Of a stretch of DNA of 64,000 nt, positions 12,408-49,764 are shown piece by piece. The first letter of the stretch is position 1, and every line of letters begins with the position of its first letter. The translations under genes and the position numbers were made by a program. The DNA lies in NCBI GenBank assembly GCA_958295785.1, contig OY282377.1:3454385-3518384 (forward strand), given 5' to 3'. Source of the stretch: an uncultured Latescibacterota bacterium. Its GTDB lineage: Bacteria; Latescibacterota; UBA2968. The notes beneath the pieces are model-generated. The model was not told the DNA's origin. It worked only from the letters and a program-made list of their open reading frames with translations, and did not search any database.

Positions 12408-13136
12408 TCAATATCGCCAATTTTCATGGGCGAGCGGCGCGCGATTGAGTTCGTCTCTGTATAAATGCCATTGGGGCATCAGGGCATCCATCAGCGCACG
12501 GAAACGCGCATTGTGGTGTCGTTCCAAGAAATGGACCATCTCGTGGACGAGAATGTACGCCAAGCACGAGGGCGGCTTCTTGACCAGTTCGAGATTCAGC
12601 CAAACGCGCCCGGCACGCGCGTTGCAGGATCCCCAGCGGGTCTTCATCCTTTTGATACGCACGTCATTGACAATCACGCCAACCCTCGCTTCCCACTTGG
12701 CGACGAGTGCGGGCAACGCGCCGCGGAGTTGGCCGCGATACCAGCCATACAGTACGGCCTCTCGCGTATCTCGGTCGTTGCCCCGGCGAACGCGCAATTC
12801 CATGGTGGCGTTATTGGGCAAACGCACCGCCGGCGGGCCATTGTGTTCAATAATGTCGATCCGATAGCGTCGGCCCCAAAAATAATGGCTTTCGCCGGTT
12901 ATGAACTCCCGTTGAGACTGGCGATCCTGTTGCGCGAACTCGGCCTGCTGCCGGCGAATCCACCCCAAGCGCGAAATGATGGCCAGGCGCACGGCGTCAT
13001 CGTCGAGGCGCAGCGGCGAGGCCACCCGCACGCGACCGGTTGGCGGATAAACGCCCACATGCAAATTCTTAATGTCTTTGCGAACGATCTCCACAGAGAT
13101 GCCACGCACATCGATATATCGCCGATCAGTAGTCAT
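12408..13136 (-). CDS. DUF45/YgjP-type metallopeptidase
   Basis: This is a 242-residue protein. The zinc-protease motif HEMVHFLERHHNARF (HExxH with a downstream His) and the preceding MKTRWGSCNARAGRVWLNLELVKKPP are diagnostic of the YgjP/WLM-like DUF45 family. Genes of this family are often found beside type I restriction subunits. Here the ATG at 13136 lies 11 bases inside the hsdR 3' end, so translation is coupled to HsdR. Its role in restriction systems is unknown; turnover of the restriction subunit, as ClpXP does in enteric bacteria, is a reasonable guess but only a guess. Confidence 0.88.
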   Translation of the reverse strand: MTTDRRYIDVRGISVEIVRKDIKNLHVGVYPPTGRVRVASPLRLDDDAVRLAIISRLGWIRRQQAEFAQQDRQSQREFITGESHYFWGRRYRIDIIEHNGPPAVRLPNNATMELRVRRGNDRDTREAVLYGWYRGQLRGALPALVAKWEARVGVIVNDVRIKRMKTRWGSCNARAGRVWLNLELVKKPPSCLAYILVHEMVHFLERHHNARFRALMDALMPQWHLYRDELNRAPLAHENWRY

Positions 13137-16100
13137 CTCGCGCCTTTACAATCTTGAATATCGCCTTTGCGAGACACTCGTCTCCCCCGAGCTCCGACTT
13201 GATGGCTTTGCAGATGCGCCGTTCCTTGAACGTGTTTCCCCTCCAGTCCGCCATCATGGTGCCACGAACCGCAATGTCGATAGCCAAGGCCGTTGTTTCG
13301 GCCGTACTGGCGGCGGTATCGGCGACCCGCTCTCGGCGCACGAGTTGGTCTAAGCCCTCGACGTCCTTCAAGTTGTCGTACAGGGCGCGATGGGCGCGGG
13401 TCCGCAGGGCAATCGGGTATGCCCCGTGCTCCGGCTGGCTCACCTGTTTCGCCAACGCGACGATCCGCGCCAGATAGGCTTTGTAATCTATGGCCGCCTG
13501 CTTGCGTTGACAGATCAGGGCGTCGAGCAAGGCCGACATTTTCTCGTAGTACTTTGGGTTGACGGCCGTCTCGTCGATGATGATTCGCCGCACATTGTTC
13601 TCGATAGTCTCGGCCATTGCTTCTCGATTCTCGCGAATGCCCGCGGGCAAGGACGCCAGCGCGTTCTCCCCGCGCTTGGCGATCAGTTGCACGAGCGTCT
13701 GATTGTCGAATGTGGAGATCTGCGCGGTCTCCTCGGCCCGGATGTACATGTCGAGCAAATCCCTCATCGCCGGTTCGTACATCTTCAGGTCGATATAGTC
13801 GCCGCTGGCGAGCTTGACCTCTGCACGCACCTTTTCGCAGTGGGCCACCTCGTCTTTGATCGCCCGCGCCTCGGCGTCGGCATAGCCTGCCTCTCGCATC
13901 TCGTTGGCCAAATTGGCGTAGGCGCGCAGGAACGATCCGACGAGTTTGTAGAGCGTCACGCGCTTGCGCTCGTTGTCCTTGCGTTGCTCGCCACTTTCCG
14001 CAACGCAGAAGAAGCGCAGATAGGCCGCCGTATCGCGCGGGGGCGCGACCGGCTCGCACAGCGCCGCGATCTCCTCGCGGACTTCCTCGAGTCGCTCCCG
14101 CCCCTTTTGCAATCGATCCTCGAGCAATCCCCTGACGTCTTCCGCGTCATAGCCATCAAACGCCTCGCCGGTATAATCGCCGATAGCCTGCTCGAGCGAC
14201 CGGAACAGATCCTTGTAGTCGATGACGTAGCCGTATTCCTTGTCTTCGCCATGCAGGCGGTTGACCCGGCAGATCGCTTGGAACAAGCCGTGGTCGCGCA
14301 TTTGCTTGTCGATGTAGAGATAGGTCGCGGGCGGGGCGTCAAAGCCGGTCAGCAACTTATCCACCACGATCAGGAGTTTCATCAGCCTCGGCTCTTCGAC
14401 GAATCGCTTTTTCACCTCCCGCTCGAATTGCTCCACCCTGTACATCGCCGCGTCTTCCGACGCGTTGAAGTGCGCCGCGAGCATCTTCCGGTAGATGTCG
14501 TATTGGCGCAATTTCTCGGTGAGGCCCTCGCCGGACTCTTCGCCCTTGATGTCCGACACTGCCGGTTTGTAAGACGTAACGATGGCGCACTTGCCCGCCA
14601 AGTCGGTTTGCTGAAACAACTCGAAGAGGCGACAGGCCGAATAGATGCTGTTTGAGACGAGCAGGGCGTTGCCGCGACCGCTCTTGAGCCGATCTCGCGT
14701 TTCCATGTCGAACAGGATGTCGGCGACGATCTTCTCCAGTCGCCCCCGCGAACTCATCACCTTTTGCATCGTGCCCCAGCGTTGCTTGAGTTGGGCCTTT
14801 GCGATATCGGTCAATCCTCGGGTCTTGCTCTCGAACCACTGATCGATCTTGGCCTGCGACGCGATGTTCTGATCGATGTCGCGCGCCTCGTAGCGCAGGT
14901 CGAGGACGACGCGATCATGCACGGCCTCGTCGTATTTGTAGGTGTGGATGTACGGCCCGAAGGTCTCGATGCTGCGCTGCTTGTCGTCCTTGAGCAACGG
15001 CGTCCCGGTGAAGCCGATCAGCGTCGCCGCAGGCAACAGTTCTTTCATCGCCGCGTGGAGCTTGCCCGACTGGGTGCGATGGCATTCATCCACAAAGACG
15101 AACAACTCGCCTTTGGCGCGAAATCCCGCCGGCAAATTGTTGCGAATTTCTTTGAGGAATGCGTCGAGGTCGCCATCTTCCGACGCGCCAAACTTGTGGA
15201 TCAACGAGCAGATCAGCCATTCGTCGCCCACGTTGAGCACGCGCGCCAGATCGGCACCGCTCGTCGTGCGATAGATGTTCTCGCTGACGCCCTTGAAGAC
15301 CCTTTCGATCTGCTCGTCCAGTTCAGTGCGGTCCGTGACGATCAGCACCCTGCCATCGGTTACGCGCTCGCGGATCCACTTTGCCAGCCAGACCATCGTC
15401 AGGCTTTTGCCGCTGCCTTGGGTGTGCCAGATGATGCCGCCCTCGCGATGCTGAACGCGCTGTTGTGCGGCCCACACCCCGAAATACTGATTGTGGCGGC
15501 AGGTCTTTTTGCCGCCTGAATCAAAGACCGTGAAGTCGTGCGCGATCTCCAGCAACCGCTCCTTGCTGCAAAGTTGACTCAGTTCCCGCAACAACGGGTT
15601 GTCGCCTGCGTCTAAGTGGGCGTCTGTTTCTTTCCAGCGCAGATAGTATTTCTCCTGTGTCTTGATCACGCCATAGCGCAACCCTTCGGTTTCGTTGCCG
15701 GCCAGCACGAGTTGAACCGTGGTGTAGAACGGGCGGATGAATTCTTTTTTCTGGCTGTCGAGGTGTTGCCGAATGCCCTCGGCCACCGATACTGTGGACC
15801 GCTTCAACTCCAGCACGCCCAAGGCGATGCCGTTGACGTAGAGCACGAGGTCGGGCCGTCTGGCGTTCTCTCCGGCAATGGTAACCTCCTCGGCGATAGC
15901 AAAGGCGTTGTTGCCCGGGTTTGACCAGTCGATCAGATAGACGGTCTGGGTTTGCCCGCCGACGTTTGGACGCACCTTGACGCCGTATCGGAGCAGGCCA
16001 TACACCTCGCGGTTGGCGTCGTAGAGCGTTTTGTTGATGCCGAGTGCCGCGTCCAATTTGTGCAATGCCTTGTCAATGGCTTTGTCGCCATGCCCTTGGC

Positions 16101-16251
16101 GCTTCAGCCAGTCGGTGAGCAACGCCTTCTCGACATTGGCGTTGTCGCGCCGACCCTTCCAGTTGCCGAGGTAGGCATAGCCGAGCGCGTCTTGAAAGAA
16201 CGCGACCACGCGCCGTTGTGTAAAAATTTCTTTTTGACCAACTGTGCTCAT
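13126..16251 (-). CDS. hsdR: Type I restriction enzyme, R (endonuclease/translocase) subunit
   Basis: This is a 1041-residue protein of normal length. The N-terminal nuclease is seen as Asp134 with Glu148-Leu-Lys150 (PDLVLYVNG..VLELK). The SF2 translocase follows: Walker A TQGSGKS at 277-283, DECH at 388-391, and TGTPL as motif III. The C-terminal helical part binds HsdM. HsdR cuts unmethylated DNA only within a complex with HsdM and HsdS. Its ATG overlaps the stop of the DUF4062 gene (ATGA at 16248-16251). No inactivating change is visible, but the partner hsdM gene at 21720-24139 is frameshifted, so the complex probably cannot form. Confidence 0.95.
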   Translation of the reverse strand: MSTVGQKEIFTQRRVVAFFQDALGYAYLGNWKGRRDNANVEKALLTDWLKRQGHGDKAIDKALHKLDAALGINKTLYDANREVYGLLRYGVKVRPNVGGQTQTVYLIDWSNPGNNAFAIAEEVTIAGENARRPDLVLYVNGIALGVLELKRSTVSVAEGIRQHLDSQKKEFIRPFYTTVQLVLAGNETEGLRYGVIKTQEKYYLRWKETDAHLDAGDNPLLRELSQLCSKERLLEIAHDFTVFDSGGKKTCRHNQYFGVWAAQQRVQHREGGIIWHTQGSGKSLTMVWLAKWIRERVTDGRVLIVTDRTELDEQIERVFKGVSENIYRTTSGADLARVLNVGDEWLICSLIHKFGASEDGDLDAFLKEIRNNLPAGFRAKGELFVFVDECHRTQSGKLHAAMKELLPAATLIGFTGTPLLKDDKQRSIETFGPYIHTYKYDEAVHDRVVLDLRYEARDIDQNIASQAKIDQWFESKTRGLTDIAKAQLKQRWGTMQKVMSSRGRLEKIVADILFDMETRDRLKSGRGNALLVSNSIYSACRLFELFQQTDLAGKCAIVTSYKPAVSDIKGEESGEGLTEKLRQYDIYRKMLAAHFNASEDAAMYRVEQFEREVKKRFVEEPRLMKLLIVVDKLLTGFDAPPATYLYIDKQMRDHGLFQAICRVNRLHGEDKEYGYVIDYKDLFRSLEQAIGDYTGEAFDGYDAEDVRGLLEDRLQKGRERLEEVREEIAALCEPVAPPRDTAAYLRFFCVAESGEQRKDNERKRVTLYKLVGSFLRAYANLANEMREAGYADAEARAIKDEVAHCEKVRAEVKLASGDYIDLKMYEPAMRDLLDMYIRAEETAQISTFDNQTLVQLIAKRGENALASLPAGIRENREAMAETIENNVRRIIIDETAVNPKYYEKMSALLDALICQRKQAAIDYKAYLARIVALAKQVSQPEHGAYPIALRTRAHRALYDNLKDVEGLDQLVRRERVADTAASTAETTALAIDIAVRGTMMADWRGNTFKERRICKAIKSELGGDECLAKAIFKIVKARDDY

Positions 16252-17930
16252 TGCTCTGCCTTTCCCATTTTCAAGGTCGCCAACGCGGCCTTTCCCCCGT
16301 CCGTCAGGCGGTACTTCTGCAAGGGGCTTCTCGGCTTGTCGGGGATTGTCTTTTCCAGTAATCCTTCATGTAGGAGGCGTGCAAGCCGCTGTTCGAAAGT
16401 ACGCGTTCGGCCAGAATAGCCCGCGGCGACTTGCAACTCCTTGCTCGTAGCCGGTGTTTCAATACACGCTTGTAACATGGCTGAATCTCTAGGTTCCAAT
16501 TCAGCTTGCACCCCTGCTTGCACCCTATCTTGACCTTCTTGCACCCCTGCTTGCACCCTATCTTGACCTTCTTGCACCCCTGCTTGGCCCCTGCTTGGCC
16601 CATTGGCCCCTGCTTGGCCTCTATCTTGACCAGCTTGCCCTTCAGCTTGCCCCCCAACTTGCCCCCCATCTTGCACCCTCGCATGTCCCGAATTCGGCTC
16701 CTCCATAACCCGCCCTGCGAGTGCCTTTCGCCGAATCGTTGTGACGAACCCATCGGTAACGGCAAATTCAGGTTCTGATAAACCGGCCCCGACACAGCGG
16801 CGGATCATGTCCAGCGTTCCGGTTCCCATTCCTTCAATGTATTCGGCGAGATACAGAGACTCGGCCAGCAAGGGGTTGCCCGGTAAAGAATTGTGCGGCT
16901 CGCGTAGCTTTTCGAGGGTCAACGGGGGCGACAGCCTGCCGGGGTTGCGGACCTCTAAGCGGTCGGCGAACAGCATCACCTGTACGCTGCCGTTGCTCGT
17001 GTAGTCGCGGTGCGCCACCGCGTTGACAATGGCCTCGGTCACAACTTCCTTGGGCATCTCGTAGGTTACGGGTGCGCGGACGCTCTCGGCACGGGTGCCG
17101 ACGTGCAACGCGATCTTGCTCAACACGAAATCCACCGCGTGATCGACCAACTCGAACGCCGTGCCCTTATAGACTTGGTAGGACGGAATCGGCTTGGCGA
17201 CCTCGGTTCCATGGAAGTGGGCGCATTTGACCTCGGAGGAGATCAAAAACCGCTGCGGCGATTTTCCGAACAACAACACCGCAGCATGGGTCAGCCGCCC
17301 GTCGTTCAGCAGGTTCAGATGGGCCAGCAACTCCTCGGGCGATGCTTCTTCGGCCAAGGGGAACTGCCGGACACTACGCGCTCGGCGAATGAACCAACGC
17401 ATTCGCTCACTATCGAGATCGTCCAGTGTCGCTCTCGGGCAGGCAACCGCGTCGAATGGCCCCCTGCGGATCAATTCCGCGTTCTCCAGATACTCCACCA
17501 ACGCGGCGTAGAGTTCGGTTTTCAGGTCTTCGGGGGTGTTGAACCGCTTTCGTATCAGCCCGGCTTGGGCCTTGCCGATCAGTGCCCGCATTTTGGGATG
17601 CCGGGCGCCGTCATCCGCCCCCTTGACGAAGATCAAGCGGTGGATGCCGAGGGCACTCGCATGGTCGAACTCCCGTTCTGTCGGCGCAACGCCGGCTTCA
17701 TCCTCGCCGCCATAGCCCCAGCCGAACAATCCCACATAGACATCGCACCGCTCGACTTCGTCCAGATAAAGCGCGTCGGGCCGTTGGTTAGAGGCCGGGG
17801 CGTCCTCGAACAGGAACACGTCGAAAAATCGCCGCAAAAGCGCATCGCCGCGAACATAGTCGCGCAACGCCGCTCGCTCTTGGGCGAACTCGCTCTGTAC
17901 GCTGCTGATGAATAGACGGAGGGGGGGCAT
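16248..17930 (-). CDS. DUF4062 plus AlbA_2/Schlafen-type ATP-binding protein with repeat linker and winged-helix tail
   Basis: This is a 560-residue protein with several domains. Residues 1-120 are DUF4062-like (LRLFISSVQSEFAQERAALRDYV; LYLDEVERCDVYVGLFGWGYG). Residues 165-410 resemble the RecG-related ATP-binding family (AVLLFGKSPQRF; EVVTEAIVNAVAHRDYTSNGSVQVMLFADRLEVRNPGRL; YIEGMGTGTLDMIRRC). Then comes a Gln/Gly-rich linker with 11-residue repeats QAGVQEGQDRV, and last a winged-helix DNA-binding region (ATSKELQVAAGYSGRTRTFEQRLARLLHEGLLEK). The N-terminal domain resembles TIR/SLOG-type effector folds. It sits between the DUF1828-like gene and hsdR with overlapping stop and start, so it is an integral part of the restriction operon, as regulator or accessory defence protein. 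Confidence 0.8.
   Translation of the reverse strand: MPPLRLFISSVQSEFAQERAALRDYVRGDALLRRFFDVFLFEDAPASNQRPDALYLDEVERCDVYVGLFGWGYGGEDEAGVAPTEREFDHASALGIHRLIFVKGADDGARHPKMRALIGKAQAGLIRKRFNTPEDLKTELYAALVEYLENAELIRRGPFDAVACPRATLDDLDSERMRWFIRRARSVRQFPLAEEASPEELLAHLNLLNDGRLTHAAVLLFGKSPQRFLISSEVKCAHFHGTEVAKPIPSYQVYKGTAFELVDHAVDFVLSKIALHVGTRAESVRAPVTYEMPKEVVTEAIVNAVAHRDYTSNGSVQVMLFADRLEVRNPGRLSPPLTLEKLREPHNSLPGNPLLAESLYLAEYIEGMGTGTLDMIRRCVGAGLSEPEFAVTDGFVTTIRRKALAGRVMEEPNSGHARVQDGGQVGGQAEGQAGQDRGQAGANGPSRGQAGVQEGQDRVQAGVQEGQDRVQAGVQAELEPRDSAMLQACIETPATSKELQVAAGYSGRTRTFEQRLARLLHEGLLEKTIPDKPRSPLQKYRLTDGGKAALATLKMGKAEQ
16505..16586 (-). repeat. 33-bp in-frame tandem repeat in the DUF4062 gene linker
   Basis: Two identical 33-bp units (16505-16537 and 16538-16570) and half of a third encode QAGVQEGQDRV repeats. 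Units are a multiple of three, so copy number can change linker length without loss of frame. Shorter G-Q-x-G variants extend on either side. Confidence 0.85.
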
Positions 17931-19208: not shown

Positions 19209-20477
19209 TTACTCCGATTTGACCAGCCGAATCCGTCCCGTGAGAAGTTGTTGCATCATCCCCTGCTTGACAGCGCGGGTCTTATCTCGGCGTCGCTCCA
19301 GCGCGGCGATCTCGGCGTCCATGTCGGAGAGGATGGCGGCGATGGCGGCCTGCTCATTTTCGTCGCTAGGAACACGGAGACGGAACTGTTCTACTTGTTC
19401 CGAGTTCGCTGCAGTAAATGTACTACCCTGCTCGAGAATCTGCCAACGCCCCTCGGCATGGACCAGAGCATGGAATAGAAACGCACAGTCCCCGACCGGC
19501 TTCAATCCACAAACTCCACGTCCAAGACATGCTTCCTTTTTCGCAATCGCAATAGTTCCGACAGGAGCCCGAACCGTAAGAATCAGGTCGTCCGCATCAC
19601 AGTGCTTGCTTGCCTGTGTTGTCCACACGCGGTCAATCGTCTTTCTGTCCTCAATGTCTGCATTTCCTTGAATCAATGGAAGACCCAAGCCTCGTAGGTT
19701 GTAGAACTTAGAAGGCGGTGATTGTCCCATAGTAAGAGCCGCAAGATCAACGAGCGGCTTCTCAGCCCACGCCCCACTGAACCCCGGCAGGCGCGTCTTG
19801 CCGGTGAGAAGTTGCTGCATGGCGGCCTGCTTAATGGCCTGCTTCTTGGCGATCAGTGCCTCCAATGACCGGAGCAGGCCGTCCACATCCGACAACGCCT
19901 CGGCGATGGCGCGTTGTTCTCTGATAGGCGGCAGTGGTATGCAAACATCCCTAAGTGCTCGCTTCGATATGCCAAAGACTTTTAGACCGGTGGCAAGCCG
20001 ACGCAACTGCATCTTCACGGGTGCTTTTTCGAGAAGATAGCCGCGATAGCCGTCACGAGTTTTCTTGTTCTTTGCCCTCAAAAGGAGCGTGTGCAGTCCT
20101 GAAACTGCTTCAGTCGCTCCAAGATTGCGAACTTCCACGCTTTTTCCGACACCGGCCTCGTCTTCGGAAGCATCCGCGACAATTAGATCGCCATCACGAA
20201 GGCGAGTAGCTGTGACACTTTTGTTAGCCAAAAGATGCGGCACTTCGTCACGAAAAAAATCTATGAAGTGATGAAAGCGGGTATGAATGTCACCGTAATG
20301 CACATACAACACAGTGCCAGTATGGCCTAGGTCGGCTCTTGAATTGGAGGCGGTATGCAGATAGTCGAAAAGCTCGCCAATGGAAAACACAGACCAATCA
20401 TTGGGGATTACGCCTACTGTTGTCTGTTTGTAGCCCACTGGCGGCCTTTGCTGAACAGAAAATTCTTTCATTTTCAT
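19209..20477 (-). CDS. hsdS: Type I restriction-modification specificity subunit
   Basis: This 422-residue protein has two target-recognition domains, each ended by the helical spacer typical of HsdS: PPIREQRAIAEALSDVDG..MQQLLTGKTRL in the middle and ENEQAAIAAILSDMDAEI..MMQQLLTGRIRL at the C-terminus. The N-terminal half reads as TRD1 (PNDWSVFSIGELFDYL) and the second as TRD2 (MGQSPPSKFYN), so a bipartite target is expected. The frame is intact. It is separated from hsdM by a PIN/Phd pair and a truncated DUF1016 gene. Just before its start lies a 22-bp sequence matching the hsdM 3' end (20478-20499), suggesting hsdS once followed hsdM directly. Confidence 0.94.
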   Translation of the reverse strand: MKMKEFSVQQRPPVGYKQTTVGVIPNDWSVFSIGELFDYLHTASNSRADLGHTGTVLYVHYGDIHTRFHHFIDFFRDEVPHLLANKSVTATRLRDGDLIVADASEDEAGVGKSVEVRNLGATEAVSGLHTLLLRAKNKKTRDGYRGYLLEKAPVKMQLRRLATGLKVFGISKRALRDVCIPLPPIREQRAIAEALSDVDGLLRSLEALIAKKQAIKQAAMQQLLTGKTRLPGFSGAWAEKPLVDLAALTMGQSPPSKFYNLRGLGLPLIQGNADIEDRKTIDRVWTTQASKHCDADDLILTVRAPVGTIAIAKKEACLGRGVCGLKPVGDCAFLFHALVHAEGRWQILEQGSTFTAANSEQVEQFRLRVPSDENEQAAIAAILSDMDAEIAALERRRDKTRAVKQGMMQQLLTGRIRLVKSE

Positions 20478-20499
20478 GTCACCCCATCTTCTCTAAGTG
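20478..20499 (-). repeat. Third partial copy of the hsdM 3' end, directly before hsdS
   Basis: On the minus strand it reads CACTTAGAGAAGATGGGGTG then AC. It matches the hsdM terminus (CACTTGGAGAAGATGGGGGT) with one substitution and one gap. See the longer copies at 21229-21283 and 21719-21772. Confidence 0.6.
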
Positions 20500-20558
20500 C
20501 CGGTATATCACATTTATAGCTTCCAGCAGATTGATACCGCGTCCACTTTCACCCAGTA

Positions 20559-20780
20559 TCAATCTCTTTCCCGCGACGCGCTGACGGCATCCAGAATGTC
20601 CCCCGTGGTGGCCCGTGTGTTGACACCCGGTACGTCAAACGGCGATTCGGTTGCACTTTCCTTGGCCTTGACAGAAAAAACGCTCCCGTCTTTAGTGCGA
20701 ATTTCCACTTCTTCTTTCTGTGCAAGAGTGAGCAGACGGGCCAGATTTTGGCGTGCTTCCAAATAGGTAAATGTCTTCAT
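20559..20780 (-). CDS. Phd/YefM-like antitoxin paired with the PIN toxin
   Basis: This is a 73-residue protein. MKTFTYLEARQNLARLLTLA, then EVEIRTKDGSVFSVKAKES, is the Phd N-terminal DNA-binding pattern. It begins six bases after the PIN-domain gene ends, so in this pair the toxin gene comes first, the reverse of most phd-doc and vapBC operons. The C-terminal tail (RATTGDILDAVSASRERD) would be the toxin-binding part. With its partner it lies between hsdM remnants and hsdS inside the restriction operon, a position where it could penalise loss of the locus. Confidence 0.78.
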   Translation of the reverse strand: MKTFTYLEARQNLARLLTLAQKEEVEIRTKDGSVFSVKAKESATESPFDVPGVNTRATTGDILDAVSASRERD

Positions 20781-20786
20781 GGGCGA

Positions 20787-21176
20787 TCACTCCACTATGT
20801 TAATCCCCAAATCACGAGCGATTTGTTTCATTCTTTTGTCAAGTGACATGAGGGGTTGGGCCAAGGATTTGGCACAGATCAGAAAATACGCATCGTAGGC
20901 GTAAATGTTGTGTTCAATAGCCAACTCGAGTGCCTTTTGGATGTCGATGCTGACCAGCCTGACCGGAATTAGGTTTGCGGCCTTTTCAGCAACCAAGGCT
21001 TCGGCCTTGGAAATTTGTCTGCGCTTGATCATCGCGGAGAGCGCGTTGCCAATTTCATAAGGCAATATTTCTGGAGCAATCAACACAGCATCCGATGTGA
21101 CTTCTATGATGTGTGCTCTTTCCGGCTCGTTCAATACGACCGCGAGGAAGATGTTTGTGTCAGCGACCAAATTCAT
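20787..21176 (-). CDS. PIN-domain ribonuclease toxin (VapC-like)
   Basis: This 129-residue protein has all four conserved PIN acidic residues: Asp6 (VADTNIF), Glu41 (LPYEIGNAL), Asp95 (AYDAYFL) and Asp113 (SLDKRM). VapC-like PIN proteins are magnesium-dependent RNases that cut tRNA or rRNA when freed from their antitoxin. The start has no strong Shine-Dalgarno. It begins 53 bases past the duplicated hsdM tail at 21229-21283, suggesting the toxin pair entered the operon as one block. Confidence 0.85.
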   Translation of the reverse strand: MNLVADTNIFLAVVLNEPERAHIIEVTSDAVLIAPEILPYEIGNALSAMIKRRQISKAEALVAEKAANLIPVRLVSIDIQKALELAIEHNIYAYDAYFLICAKSLAQPLMSLDKRMKQIARDLGINIVE

Positions 21177-21228
21177 ATAAATATACGATCAAAAAGTGGC
21201 ATAAATAAGACCGGATACAGACGCCAAG

Positions 21229-21283
21229 CTCACAGCGTCACCCCCCATTTTCTCCAAGTGTCCCGCGACCTTGTCGCCAAACG
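21229..21283 (-). repeat. Duplicated hsdM 3' end, second copy (55 bp)
   Basis: It is identical to 21719-21772 except for one extra C and two substitutions, and encodes the relic FGDKVAGHLEKMG. It lies between the truncated DUF1016 gene and the PIN toxin gene. Confidence 0.88.
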
Positions 21284-21363
21284 CCGGTCAGTACACTTGG
21301 GCGGCAGTTTCACGATGGATTCAACAGACAGCGTCTGCACAATTCCCGACATTTCCGGATCTG

Positions 21364-21723
21364 CTAGCTGGGGGGCGGAGGCTCCCTGATGTTACTCAAT
21401 GTCTCTTCTTGAGGGGCCGTCATCAATTTTGCAGACACCGTCTGCAAAATCTCCGAGTAGCACCTATAGAACTTGCACGATAACGCCAAGCTCCGGCTGG
21501 AGCAACCTCGTATCGCCAGTTTGGCCGCCAGTCTTTTGATCAGTGCCACGCCATATTCCGCCCTATCCGCGCCATGCTGTTCATACTCGACGATATACCA
21601 GCCGAACAGCCAGTTCCGCACAACGAGTGAGCGATCAATAGCGCGTACCGCCGAGTGTCGTGTTTCCTCGTGGGTTCGCCGACACAACTCCACGAGATCC
21701 TCGAAATCGAATGCTTGACTCAC
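21364..21723 (-). pseudogene. DUF1016 (YhcG-like) gene, N-terminal domain only
   Basis: This 119-residue product starts at a GTG (21723) overlapping the hsdM stop. HEETRHSAVRAIDRSLVVRNWLFGWYIVEYEQHGADRAEYGVALIKRLAAKL, then GCSSRSLALSCKFYRCYSEILQTVSAKL, matches the DUF1016 N-terminal domain, which in full-length YhcG proteins (about 350 residues) precedes a PD-(D/E)XK nuclease domain. The nuclease part is absent: after about 115 residues the frame enters unrelated sequence and stops at 21364. YhcG-type nucleases commonly accompany type I restriction genes. This one is probably a relic, although a stand-alone N-terminal domain with a protein-binding role cannot be excluded. Confidence 0.72.
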
Positions 21724-21772
21724 AGCGTCACCCCCATCTTCTCCAAGTGTCCCGCGACCTTCTCGCCAAACG
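21719..21772 (-). repeat. hsdM 3' end, original copy of the duplicated 54-bp segment
   Basis: It encodes FGEKVAGHLEKMGVTL and the hsdM stop, plus the start of the DUF1016 gene. Copies lie at 21229-21283 (about 95 percent identical) and, shorter, at 20478-20499. Confidence 0.85.
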
Positions 21773-24139
21773 TTGCCACCTCTTGCTCCAACGCCGGCAG
21801 CGTTTGCGCGTATCGCTCCTCCAATTCCTTCACCCGCCCGGCGAGTTGTTGCGTCAGCCGCTGCACCTCGCTGTCGATCATGTCCTGGATATTGGCGAAC
21901 CATTTGTCCTCGATGACCAGCGTCTTGATCTCGTCCTGAGAGAGCGCGGCATAGTGTGCCAACACCTGCGCGTCCAACTCGGCTTGGGCGTCCCTCACGG
22001 CCTTGTCGGATTTGGACTTGGCTTGGAAAAGGGCGAGGCAGTGCTTGAGGGCGGCATGTTCTCGGTCGCCCTCTAACTCGTCCCGCATGGCCTTGAGCCG
22101 GTTGACCACGCCGATTTTGGTGACCGTCCCTTTGTCATTGGCGGCGTCTTCTAACAGACCGCCCTCGCCGATGTGTTCTTCGATAAATTCCTCCAACGCG
22201 CGAGCGGCGTCCTCCTGCTCCATCCGCAACCCCTCGAGGGCGACCTGTTCAGCGGCGAAGTAGCGCGTCGCGATCAACGCCGGCGGAATCAGATCCATCT
22301 TGTACTTCCCGCGCTTGATGGTCAAGTCCGGCGTTTCCTTGATCTTCTTTGCCTTATCCTCGATGATCCCGCGAGGCTTGGCCGCCTCGACCCAGCCATC
22401 CGCCGCGATGAGATACACATCGTCCTGCATCGTCTCATCCCAATAATTTATCAGACATTGGTACACGTCGTAGCGGTTGAGCAAGGGGAGATCGGCGAAG
22501 CGCGTCAGCAGATCCTCGGACAATTCGTCGATGACCGCCGCGGGACGGGCATTGACCCCAAGTGCCCAAAGGCGCGGCTCGTGGGCCTCGCGCCAAGCCG
22601 TGAAAACAGCCGCAACGCGCGCGCGATAGAACGCGATAGAACTCGAACTCCTCGTGACCGAGAATGACGGCCTTCACCCGTGCGGTCTCGACGCGGGCCT
22701 CGCTGTAGCCCGCGCAACGCGGGGAAGACCGCCCAGTAATCGCGCAGGGCGTCGAGATCGCGGTCGGGAATGCCGCCGTTCAAATGCGCGTGGAGATCGT
22801 GCCAATCCTCTAACTCGCTGGCGTCGATGTAGCGCGGGATGTTCAAGTTGTAGTCGTTGGCCGGGCTGGCGACCTCGGCGGCGGACACTATGCGCGCATA
22901 GCCCGGCTCCTCGACCTGCCGGTTAAACACATCCACAATCCGGTGAATGTCCTGCGCCCGCAGGCGATTCTTGTTGCCATCCTTGAGAAAGCCCCGGCTC
23001 GCGTCGATCATAAAAATGCCTTTGCGGGCGTGGGCGTGTTCTTTGTCGATGACCAAAATGCACGCGGGAATGCCCGTGCCGTAGAACAGATTGGCCGGTA
23101 GGCCGATGATGCCCTTGATGAACCCTTGCCCGATGAGATTTTTGCGAATCTCCGCCTCCTTGTTGCCGCGAAACAACACCCCGTGCGGCAGGATGATCGC
23201 CCCCTTGCCCCGGCGCTTGAGCGACTTGACGAGGTGCAGCAGGAAGGCGTAGTCGCCGTTCTTGGCCGGTGGGATGCCGTACTCAAACCGCCCAAATTCG
23301 TCATTTGCCGGATCGAATCCATTGGCCCATGCCTTGGTCGAAAATGGCGGATTGGCGATGGCGAAGTCAAAGGTCTTGAGGCCGTTGTCCGAGTTCTTGT
23401 AATAGGGCGCGGCCAGCGTGTTGCCGCGCCACAACTCGGCGGTCTCGTGCCCGTGCAAGATCATGTTCATCTGCGCCAAGGCCCAAGTGGCATTGTCCAT
23501 CTCCTGCCCGTAGATGCTGAGGCCGCGCGGCGCGAGGTCCGCGGCTTTGAGCAACAGGGAGCCGGAACCGCACGCGAGGTCGTAAATGGTCTCGTCTTGG
23601 CGGGTGTGCGGGCCGATGCCGATCACCTGCGCCATAACGCGCGAGACCTCGGCCGGCGTGTAGAACTGCCCTTTGGCCTTGCCGGATTCGGTGGCAAAGT
23701 GCCGCATCAGGTACTCGTAGGCGTCGCCCAACAGGTCGTCGCCCTCGGCGCGGTTGGCGCGAAAGTCGAGGCCCTCAAAGATGGCGACCAACTTGGAGAG
23801 GCGGTCTTGCATCTCTTTGCCCGCGCCGAGTTTGCTCTCGTCGTTGAAATCGGCCTGATCGATGACGCCCTTGAGGTCGTTGGCCTCGGCGAGGTGGCCG
23901 ATGATCTTGTTGATCCGGTCGCCGATCTCCTTGTCGCCCTTGAGCGCGGCCATGTCGGCAAAGCCGCCGCCAGTGGGCACTTCGATGAGCGAGTCCGGCT
24001 TGTCGGCTTTGTCCGAGACGTACTTCATAAACAACAAGGTCAGCACATAGTCCTTGTACTGAGAGGCGTCCATGCCGCCGCGCAACTCGTCGCAACTTTG
24101 CCACAGCGATGCGTAGATTTGGGATTTCTTCAGTGCCAT
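21720..24139 (-). pseudogene. hsdM: Type I DNA methyltransferase subunit, frameshifted twice
   Basis: The N-terminal two thirds are intact: helical domain (LKKSQIYASLWQSCDELRGG), SAM motif I DLACGSGSLLL at about 188-198 and catalytic NPPF at 263-266. The frame then shifts near 22705-22715, after YWAVFPALRG. It shifts again at 22622-22641, where TTCTATCGCG is present twice in tandem. Reading continues in the third frame (RVAAVFTAWREAHEPRLWALGVNARPAAVIDELSEDLL) to the stop at 21720. Removing one G and one 10-bp copy restores an 802-residue protein. As sequenced, the product lacks the C-terminal part needed for HsdS/HsdR assembly, so modification and restriction should both be off. A gene 12 bases upstream encodes an RNase II/R. 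Confidence 0.9.
22622..22641 (-). repeat. Perfect 10-bp tandem duplication inside hsdM
   Basis: CGCGATAGAA occurs twice head-to-tail on the plus strand (22622-22631, 22632-22641). The extra 10 bases cause the second hsdM frameshift. Slipped-strand loss of one copy would remove that shift. Confidence 0.92.
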
Positions 24140-26169: not shown

Positions 26170-26607
26170 CTAAAGGGTGGATAACAACGCCTCTGGATGC
26201 GTGCGGGCATTCACATTGGCGTGTACTCCTGCGATGATACCATCGGGGGCAATGACATAAGTCATGCGTTTGGCAGCGCGGTCCAATGCCGATTGACACG
26301 CGCCATAAGCGAGGCAGATTTCGCGTTCTGTATCGCACAACAGAGGGTAATCAAAATTTTGTGCGTTGGCAAATTTGGCATTGGCAGCAACACCGTCTGT
26401 GCTCACGCCCAGAATTTGCACATTCTCGGCCGCATAGTCGTGGATTCGCGCCTGGAATCCCGCTCCCTCAGCCGTTCAGCCCCCCGTGCTTGCCCTCGGA
26501 TAAAACCAGAGCACGACGGTCTTGCCGCGATAATGACTGAGCCTCACCTCATTGCCTGCGTGATCTTTGACCGAAAAATCAGGCGCAACATCGCCAACAG
26601 CGAGCAT
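26170..26607 (-). CDS. Selenocysteine-containing peroxiredoxin (BCP/PrxQ-like), UGA at the catalytic position
   Basis: This is a 145-residue thioredoxin-fold protein. It starts at 26607 with GAGGAGG five bases upstream (MLAVGDVAPDFSVKDHAGNEV). At codon 44 (26478-26476) the frame has TGA where BCP/PrxQ proteins have the peroxidatic Cys: YPRASTGG-U-TAEGAGFQ against the usual YPKxxTPGCTxEA. Downstream the frame stays open for 101 codons with normal family features (ILGVSTDG; FDYPLLCDTEREICLAYGA; TYVIAPDGIIAGVH). A bacterial-type SECIS hairpin follows (26439-26462). It would reduce peroxides using a selenol. A simple nonsense mutation of TGC is the alternative, but the position and hairpin favour selenocysteine. 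It ends 68 bases before the RNase gene. Confidence 0.82.
26439..26462 (-). promoter_or_regulatory. Putative bacterial SECIS element
   Basis: Starting 14 bases after the UGA, the mRNA folds as CG-GGATTC / GAATCC-a-CG with one bulged A, closing the 7-base loop CAGGCGC. Two G residues lie early in the loop, 24-25 bases after the UGA. Spacing and loop size fit SelB-binding hairpins of bacterial selenoprotein genes. Confidence 0.65.
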
Positions 26608-48694: not shown

Positions 48695-49658
48695 AAGCCT
48701 CTGCGTCCAACGCATGCTGAAAAGCATCGAGATTGTCCACTTGCACCGCCTCACGATGCAACTGCTTGAGTTGTTGCAAATCGTCAATCGCCCGAATGCG
48801 ACCGGCGAACTGACCGGGCGCGTCCGCATCAAAGCGAACCTCCAACACATCGAGAATATCTTCAATGGTGCTTTCTCTAATCCCTTCCTCCCTGCCGCGA
48901 CGCATCCCCTGTTCAATGCCCTGTTCAATGCCCTGTTCAATGCCCTGCTCGATCCCGCGGTCAATACCTTGTTGGGTAAGGTATTGGGCAAACGATGATT
49001 CACGCATAATCGCATCCATAAAACCCTCCTGAGAAATAATACGCCTAACGGTGGACAATTCGTACGATATCCCACCTAAAATAGCCATACCCGCCATCAT
49101 GTCAACCTTGGTTGAGGCATCCAAGGGCAAGGCTTCCGTCGCCTGAAGACATTGACGCAACCACGCATCCGCAGACACGCCAGACGGAGGTTTCATCAAT
49201 GGCGCAAACGGAAGCAAGCCCGGATGACCACCCTCGATAATCGCTTGACCATCGATCTCACTCAGACGAATCACCTTGTATTTCACCAGCACCTCATGGC
49301 CGGGCAGTTCTTGGATGTAGTATCCCTTATCGCGTCGTCCAGCACCGGGACGCAGGTAGATCACAAAGGAAAAGATCGGCAGGCCATAGCGTTCTATGGC
49401 GCGACCGATATAGCCGGCCATGCGATGCGACATCGGGACGTCCGTGCTGTCCGCGGTTTGAAATTCGCAATGAATCAACGCATCCTCACCCTCAATACGC
49501 ACGAGAATCAGGCTATCGGCGCGCCGGGCTTCCACAGTGGGTTGCTCGGTCTCGAGCACCTCGAGCACCTCCACGTCAGCGCGTCCAAGTGTGAAGCGGA
49601 TGAAATCGTCCGGGTAGGTTTGAATCAGGTGTTTGGATATCGTATCGTATTCGGCCAT
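48693..49658 (-). CDS. Rpn/YhgA-type PD-(D/E)XK nuclease-like protein
   Basis: This is a 321-residue protein. The nuclease-like core is ADSLILVRIEGEDALIHCEFQTADSTDVPMSHRMAGYIGRAIERYGLPIFSFVIYLRPG, with the E-x-Q of the family replacing E-x-K. It resembles the cyanobacterial-type Rpn/DUF4351 proteins. The C-terminus has tandem GIEQ repeats (48906-48954) followed by GMRRGREEGIRESTIEDILDVLEVRF. Rpn proteins promote RecA-independent recombination or act as DNA-cutting defence factors. AAGGTGG precedes the ATG at 49658. The frame stays open upstream through a 12-bp tandem repeat (49671-49764), which would add FIIL units if an earlier start were used. The IS5-like element ends at its stop codon. 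Confidence 0.8.
   Translation of the reverse strand: MAEYDTISKHLIQTYPDDFIRFTLGRADVEVLEVLETEQPTVEARRADSLILVRIEGEDALIHCEFQTADSTDVPMSHRMAGYIGRAIERYGLPIFSFVIYLRPGAGRRDKGYYIQELPGHEVLVKYKVIRLSEIDGQAIIEGGHPGLLPFAPLMKPPSGVSADAWLRQCLQATEALPLDASTKVDMMAGMAILGGISYELSTVRRIISQEGFMDAIMRESSFAQYLTQQGIDRGIEQGIEQGIEQGIEQGMRRGREEGIRESTIEDILDVLEVRFDADAPGQFAGRIRAIDDLQQLKQLHREAVQVDNLDAFQHALDAEA
48906..48954 (-). repeat. 12-bp in-frame tandem repeat in the Rpn gene
   Basis: About four units of GCCCTGTTCAAT (plus strand) encode GIEQ on the minus strand. Units are multiples of three. Confidence 0.8.
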
Positions 49659-49670
49659 AAACGCCACCTT

Positions 49671-49764
49671 GAACAAAATGATGAACAAAATGATGAACAA
49701 AATGATGAACAAAATGATGAACAAAATGATGAACAAAATGATGAACAAAATGATGAACAAAAAA
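49671..49764. repeat. 12-bp minisatellite upstream of the Rpn gene (about 7.8 units)
   Basis: The unit GAACAAAATGAT repeats perfectly seven times from 49671 and then partially. It lies 13 bases before the Rpn start codon on the minus strand, where the promoter or leader should be. Copy-number change would alter promoter spacing without affecting the gene's frame. Confidence 0.95.

Follow-up and report, generated by a model that had tools for sequence, protein, structure and literature searches.

Probable recent decay of hsdM through two small indels in a modular type I restriction-modification locus of a Latescibacterota bacterium

The stretch of DNA analysed here (the window, 64,000 nucleotides) lies on a single 5.66-Mb contig with a completeness of 99%, from an uncultured Latescibacterota bacterium which we take to be probably sponge-associated, as such metagenome-assembled genomes (MAGs) tend to be. 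The minus strand of the window encodes a type I restriction-modification locus (Table 1). HsdR combines an HSDR_N domain with a SWI2/SNF2 motor and HsdS contains two target recognition domains, with matches to PF01420 in two stretches, and is recognized by PADLOC as Specificity_I. Both proteins are full length according to their profile matches, and the hsdR genes of two other genomes (G034 and G042) are 71-74% identical over the full length; the earlier statement that hsdR and hsdS are intact is thereby confirmed. The PIN/Phd-like pair and a DUF1016 remnant sit between hsdM and hsdS. No second copy of the hsdM region was found elsewhere in the genome, and a plasmid search returned distant relatives only (~75%). 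The gene adjoining hsdR, which encodes a DUF4062 / RecG-like / Fic-like C-terminal protein, contains tandem 33-bp and 12-bp repeats at 16504-16678, encoding a GQAGVQEGQDRVQAG-like linker.

Table 1. Features of the type I locus and of the lesions in hsdM (window coordinates).
Feature	Position	Strand	Remarks
hsdR, 1041 aa, intact	13126..16251	-	TIGR00348 1.8e-161; PADLOC REase_I over 1-1036
hsdS, 422 aa, intact	19209..20477	-	PF01420, two stretches; PADLOC Specificity_I
PIN toxin / Phd-YefM-like antitoxin pair	20559..21176	-	PF01850 4e-10; PF02604 weak, below cut-off
DUF1016 gene remnant, N-terminal domain only	21364..21723	-	PF17761 6e-13
hsdM, broken into three frames	21720..24139	-	intact homologues ~810 aa
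hsdM C-terminal 300 codons, open, third frame	21720..22622	-	PADLOC MTase_I PDLC03027 positions 513-809, 1.4e-90
10-bp tandem duplication, (TTCTATCGCG)x2	22622..22641	-	single copy in homologues
29-bp deletion junction	22709..22716	-	seen against every homologue aligned; cannot be placed to the base within GCGCGGGC
hsdM N-terminal ORF, 544 aa	22505..24139	-	HsdM_N (10-121) and N6_Mtase (134-445) intact

The hsdM gene has no full-length open frame, as two indels interrupt it and a stop follows after 544 aa. Hexamer coding potential shifts frame at ~22708-22713 and again at ~22629-22637, and the three coding frames succeed one another cleanly, the third reaching 21720. On the 810 positions of the PADLOC profile PDLC03027 the first fragment covers 1-476 and the second 513-809. 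The 544-aa product thus comprises ~476 native residues followed by ~67 out-of-frame residues, and the truncation removes the helical C-terminal third of the protein and scrambles the region just past the catalytic domain. The two domains by which the HsdM of a type I system is recognized, HsdM_N and N6_Mtase, are both found in the N-terminal fragment. The detached C-terminal 300 codons share 38-68% identity with their nearest intact homologues.

Two lesions had been proposed in the first-pass annotation, a head-to-tail 10-bp duplication and a separate one-base shift near 22705-22715. The duplication is found exactly where it was placed, and in a DNA alignment with 12 homologues the unit is single in every one of them. 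Perfect 10+10 tandems are rare: a 104-kb region around the window holds two, where dinucleotide-Markov random sequence would give 0.3, and another 400 kb also contains two. Longer tandems of a perfect 12-bp unit, whose length preserves the frame, are seen in one minus-strand coding region at 49670-49762 (7.8 copies of TGAACAAAATGA) and 48907-48947 (3.4 copies of CCCTGTTCAATG). The second shift is likewise real, but its nature is different from that proposed. All 12 aligned homologues are longer at this site, typically by 29 bases, and an extra base at 22705-22715 is ruled out in favor of a 29-bp deletion. In the absence of homologues the lesion resembled an extra G because the loss of 29 bases and the gain of one shift the frame alike; the repaired frame of 802 codons calculated from it was arithmetically correct, the 2,420-nt span minus 11 nt giving 803 codons including the stop. 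The segment missing from the window reads like EALFVGNGRA in the homologues (~10 residues, between VFPALR and GYSEARVET), and two of its residues, L480 and F481 in the numbering of homologue L005, are invariant in an alignment of 27 homologues. Since the junction sits in GCGCGGGC, the deletion may plausibly have arisen by slippage between short GC-rich matches.

In order to estimate the age of the lesions, the two parts of hsdM were compared with homologues, nearly all of which, where enough sequence is available, are open over ~780-860 aa. The N part is 83-85% identical at the protein level to the nearest homologues found. The 300 downstream codons contain no stop, and the ratio of dN in the downstream part to dN in the N part lies at 1.7-2.9 for every homologue except one; pairs of intact genes have a median of 2.3 (range 1.6-7.9). 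As these codons have stayed free of stops and their divergence does not exceed that seen in intact relatives, the break is recent, in agreement with what had been suggested for both shifts; judged from these divergences, the lesions are young relative to the split from the nearest homologues found. In four other family members (L055, L071, L114 and L107) the break in hsdM likewise falls in the C-terminal third. In one of these four, from a genome of the same genus (G004; L107/L006/L028), hsdM ends within this C-terminal region at a contig end, where the sequence resembles the start of a transposase gene, an apparent insertion-sequence junction.

Further signs of rearrangement are found next to hsdM. 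The PIN/Phd-like pair has 94% nucleotide identity to the corresponding segment of G046, a genome that belongs to a different family of the class, and the start of the DUF1016 gene is 92.5% identical in DNA to that of G046, whose copy is truncated too, but differently. The HsdM proteins of the two genomes, by contrast, share only 83% identity in the N part and 64% in the C part. Given this contrast, the cassette at 20467-21762, holding the DUF1016 remnant and the PIN/Phd-like pair, points to a recent exchange inside the locus. The 3' end of hsdM (~42 nt, at 21731-21772) is repeated with 95% identity at 21242-21283, past the DUF1016 remnant, and this repeat is likely a scar of the cassette insertion. 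By the identities to G046, the 42-nt repeat and the broken genes, the locus is modular, is exchanged between lineages and is decaying in more than one gene. Just upstream of hsdM, at 26170-26607 on the minus strand, lies a BCP-type peroxiredoxin gene with an in-frame TGA aligned to the peroxidatic cysteine (TGG-U-TAEGAGF). Of 19 closely matching genomes 18 retain the TGA, which rules out a frame break, and the genome encodes tRNA-Sec and selB; by this conservation the gene is identified as that of a selenocysteine peroxiredoxin. The RNA fold downstream of the TGA is no more stable than shuffled sequences (z = 0.42), so that folding alone gives no SECIS element here. Selenocysteine-containing peroxiredoxins are already known from marine metagenomes (PMC1088965).

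The reading best in accord with these observations, and one we hold with good though not complete confidence, is a recent loss-of-function decay of hsdM in an otherwise intact, modular type I locus, rather than a phase switch. The frame of hsdM is shifted twice, by the 29-bp deletion and, ~70 bp further on, by the 10-bp tandem duplication; ordinary slippage during replication or repair through microhomology probably produced both. The truncated HsdM would then no longer build a working M2S complex, and methylation and cutting would both be lost, leaving the cell viable, as HsdR depends on M and S for its action. The R subunit is inactive outside the R2M2S complex (PMC12707154), which supports the earlier view that the loss of hsdM is not lethal. 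The type I system is thus probably shut off by the truncation of hsdM. That part of the earlier claim follows well from the two lesions, but the truncated protein retains the whole methylase core and is about as long as a canonical HsdM, which counts against regarding the loss of function as proven.

This point leads to the alternative that the 544-aa protein assembles with HsdS and methylates, only restriction, or nothing, having been lost. In a structure model of an intact homologue (mean pLDDT 84.6), the catalytic domain is directly followed by a pair of strands at 481-492 (E481-483 and E489-492) and then by ~310 mostly helical residues, among them two adjacent long helices (694-737 and 740-781). 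Foldseek aligns the model over ~500 columns with structures of canonical HsdM proteins, which are 470-500 residues long. On this model, what is lost is an extension absent from solved canonical HsdM proteins, together with its scrambled root. The lack of the extension in the canonical structures, and the completeness of both Pfam domains in the fragment, are compatible with an active truncated protein. The extension is however retained by nearly all intact homologues in many phyla, with many conserved residues, and the deletion takes part of the predicted strand pair and is followed directly by the 67 out-of-frame residues. Activity of the truncated form is therefore considered unlikely; if it were true, the long C-terminal extension of this kind of HsdM would be dispensable.

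An assembly or sequencing error in an organism whose hsdM is intact is less probable again, and we regard it as very unlikely. The species is represented by one genome, which leaves some room for such an error, but lesions of 29 and 10 bp do not resemble the usual homopolymer errors, the assembly is one long contig and nearly complete, and the in-frame TGA nearby is accounted for as selenocysteine. Neither does the assembly have a general frameshift problem: candidate switches of coding frame are few in the 504 kb scanned, with a sensitivity of ~74% for planted one-base deletions, and a 400-kb sample gave 19 candidates among ~425 coding segments, many of them probably gene junctions.

The first-pass annotation had also proposed that the tandem copies could slip back, making the switch partly reversible. 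This fails on the arithmetic of the frame: with one copy of the unit hsdM remains shifted and stops at 564 aa, with two copies (the present state) it stops at 544, with three it opens to 809 aa, and with four or five it is closed again. A return to one copy is thus ruled out as an on-state, and as 29 bp are missing at the second site, losing a repeat copy would not undo the break. A phase-variable switch, in which hsdM would be turned on or off by the number of 10-bp units, could draw on the fact that ten is not a multiple of three and that a third copy would reopen the frame. However, phase-variable simple sequence repeats have many copies whose number varies among relatives, whereas here there are two copies against one in all relatives, reversal from two to one leaves hsdM off, and known switching of hsdM relies on a 5'-terminal repeat tract that varies in copy number. 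Judged from its copy number the repeat is not a contingency tract, and such a switch is highly improbable. It is hardly credible that the gene is a slow contingency locus, in which slippage to three copies would yield a readable, slightly altered HsdM despite the irreversible deletion, the 809-aa frame still carrying the deleted and scrambled stretch in mid-protein.

Decay of hsdM would make this one more restriction-modification system that is losing its methyltransferase while the other genes stay intact, a kind of decay that is common and well understood. The hsdM3 gene of H. influenzae (the M gene of HindVIIP) is alike in that indels shift the frame of a type I hsdM, but there switching depends on a pentanucleotide CGAGA tract of variable copy number at the 5' end (PMC6646836), whereas the window has a single duplication in the last third of the gene plus an unrelated deletion. 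The HsdM proteins of EcoR124I and PacII (PDB 7bst and 7vru) share the fold of the first ~490 residues and end where the long HsdM family adds its ~310 mostly helical residues. It is this long family (~810 aa; PADLOC MTase_I PDLC03027) that the gene resembles most, with the same domain order and C-terminal extension; its closest members, from relatives of the same class and from MAGs labelled Entotheonella, Poribacteria and others, are 79-85% identical in the N part, and nearly all members of the family are open where the present hsdM is split by two indels.
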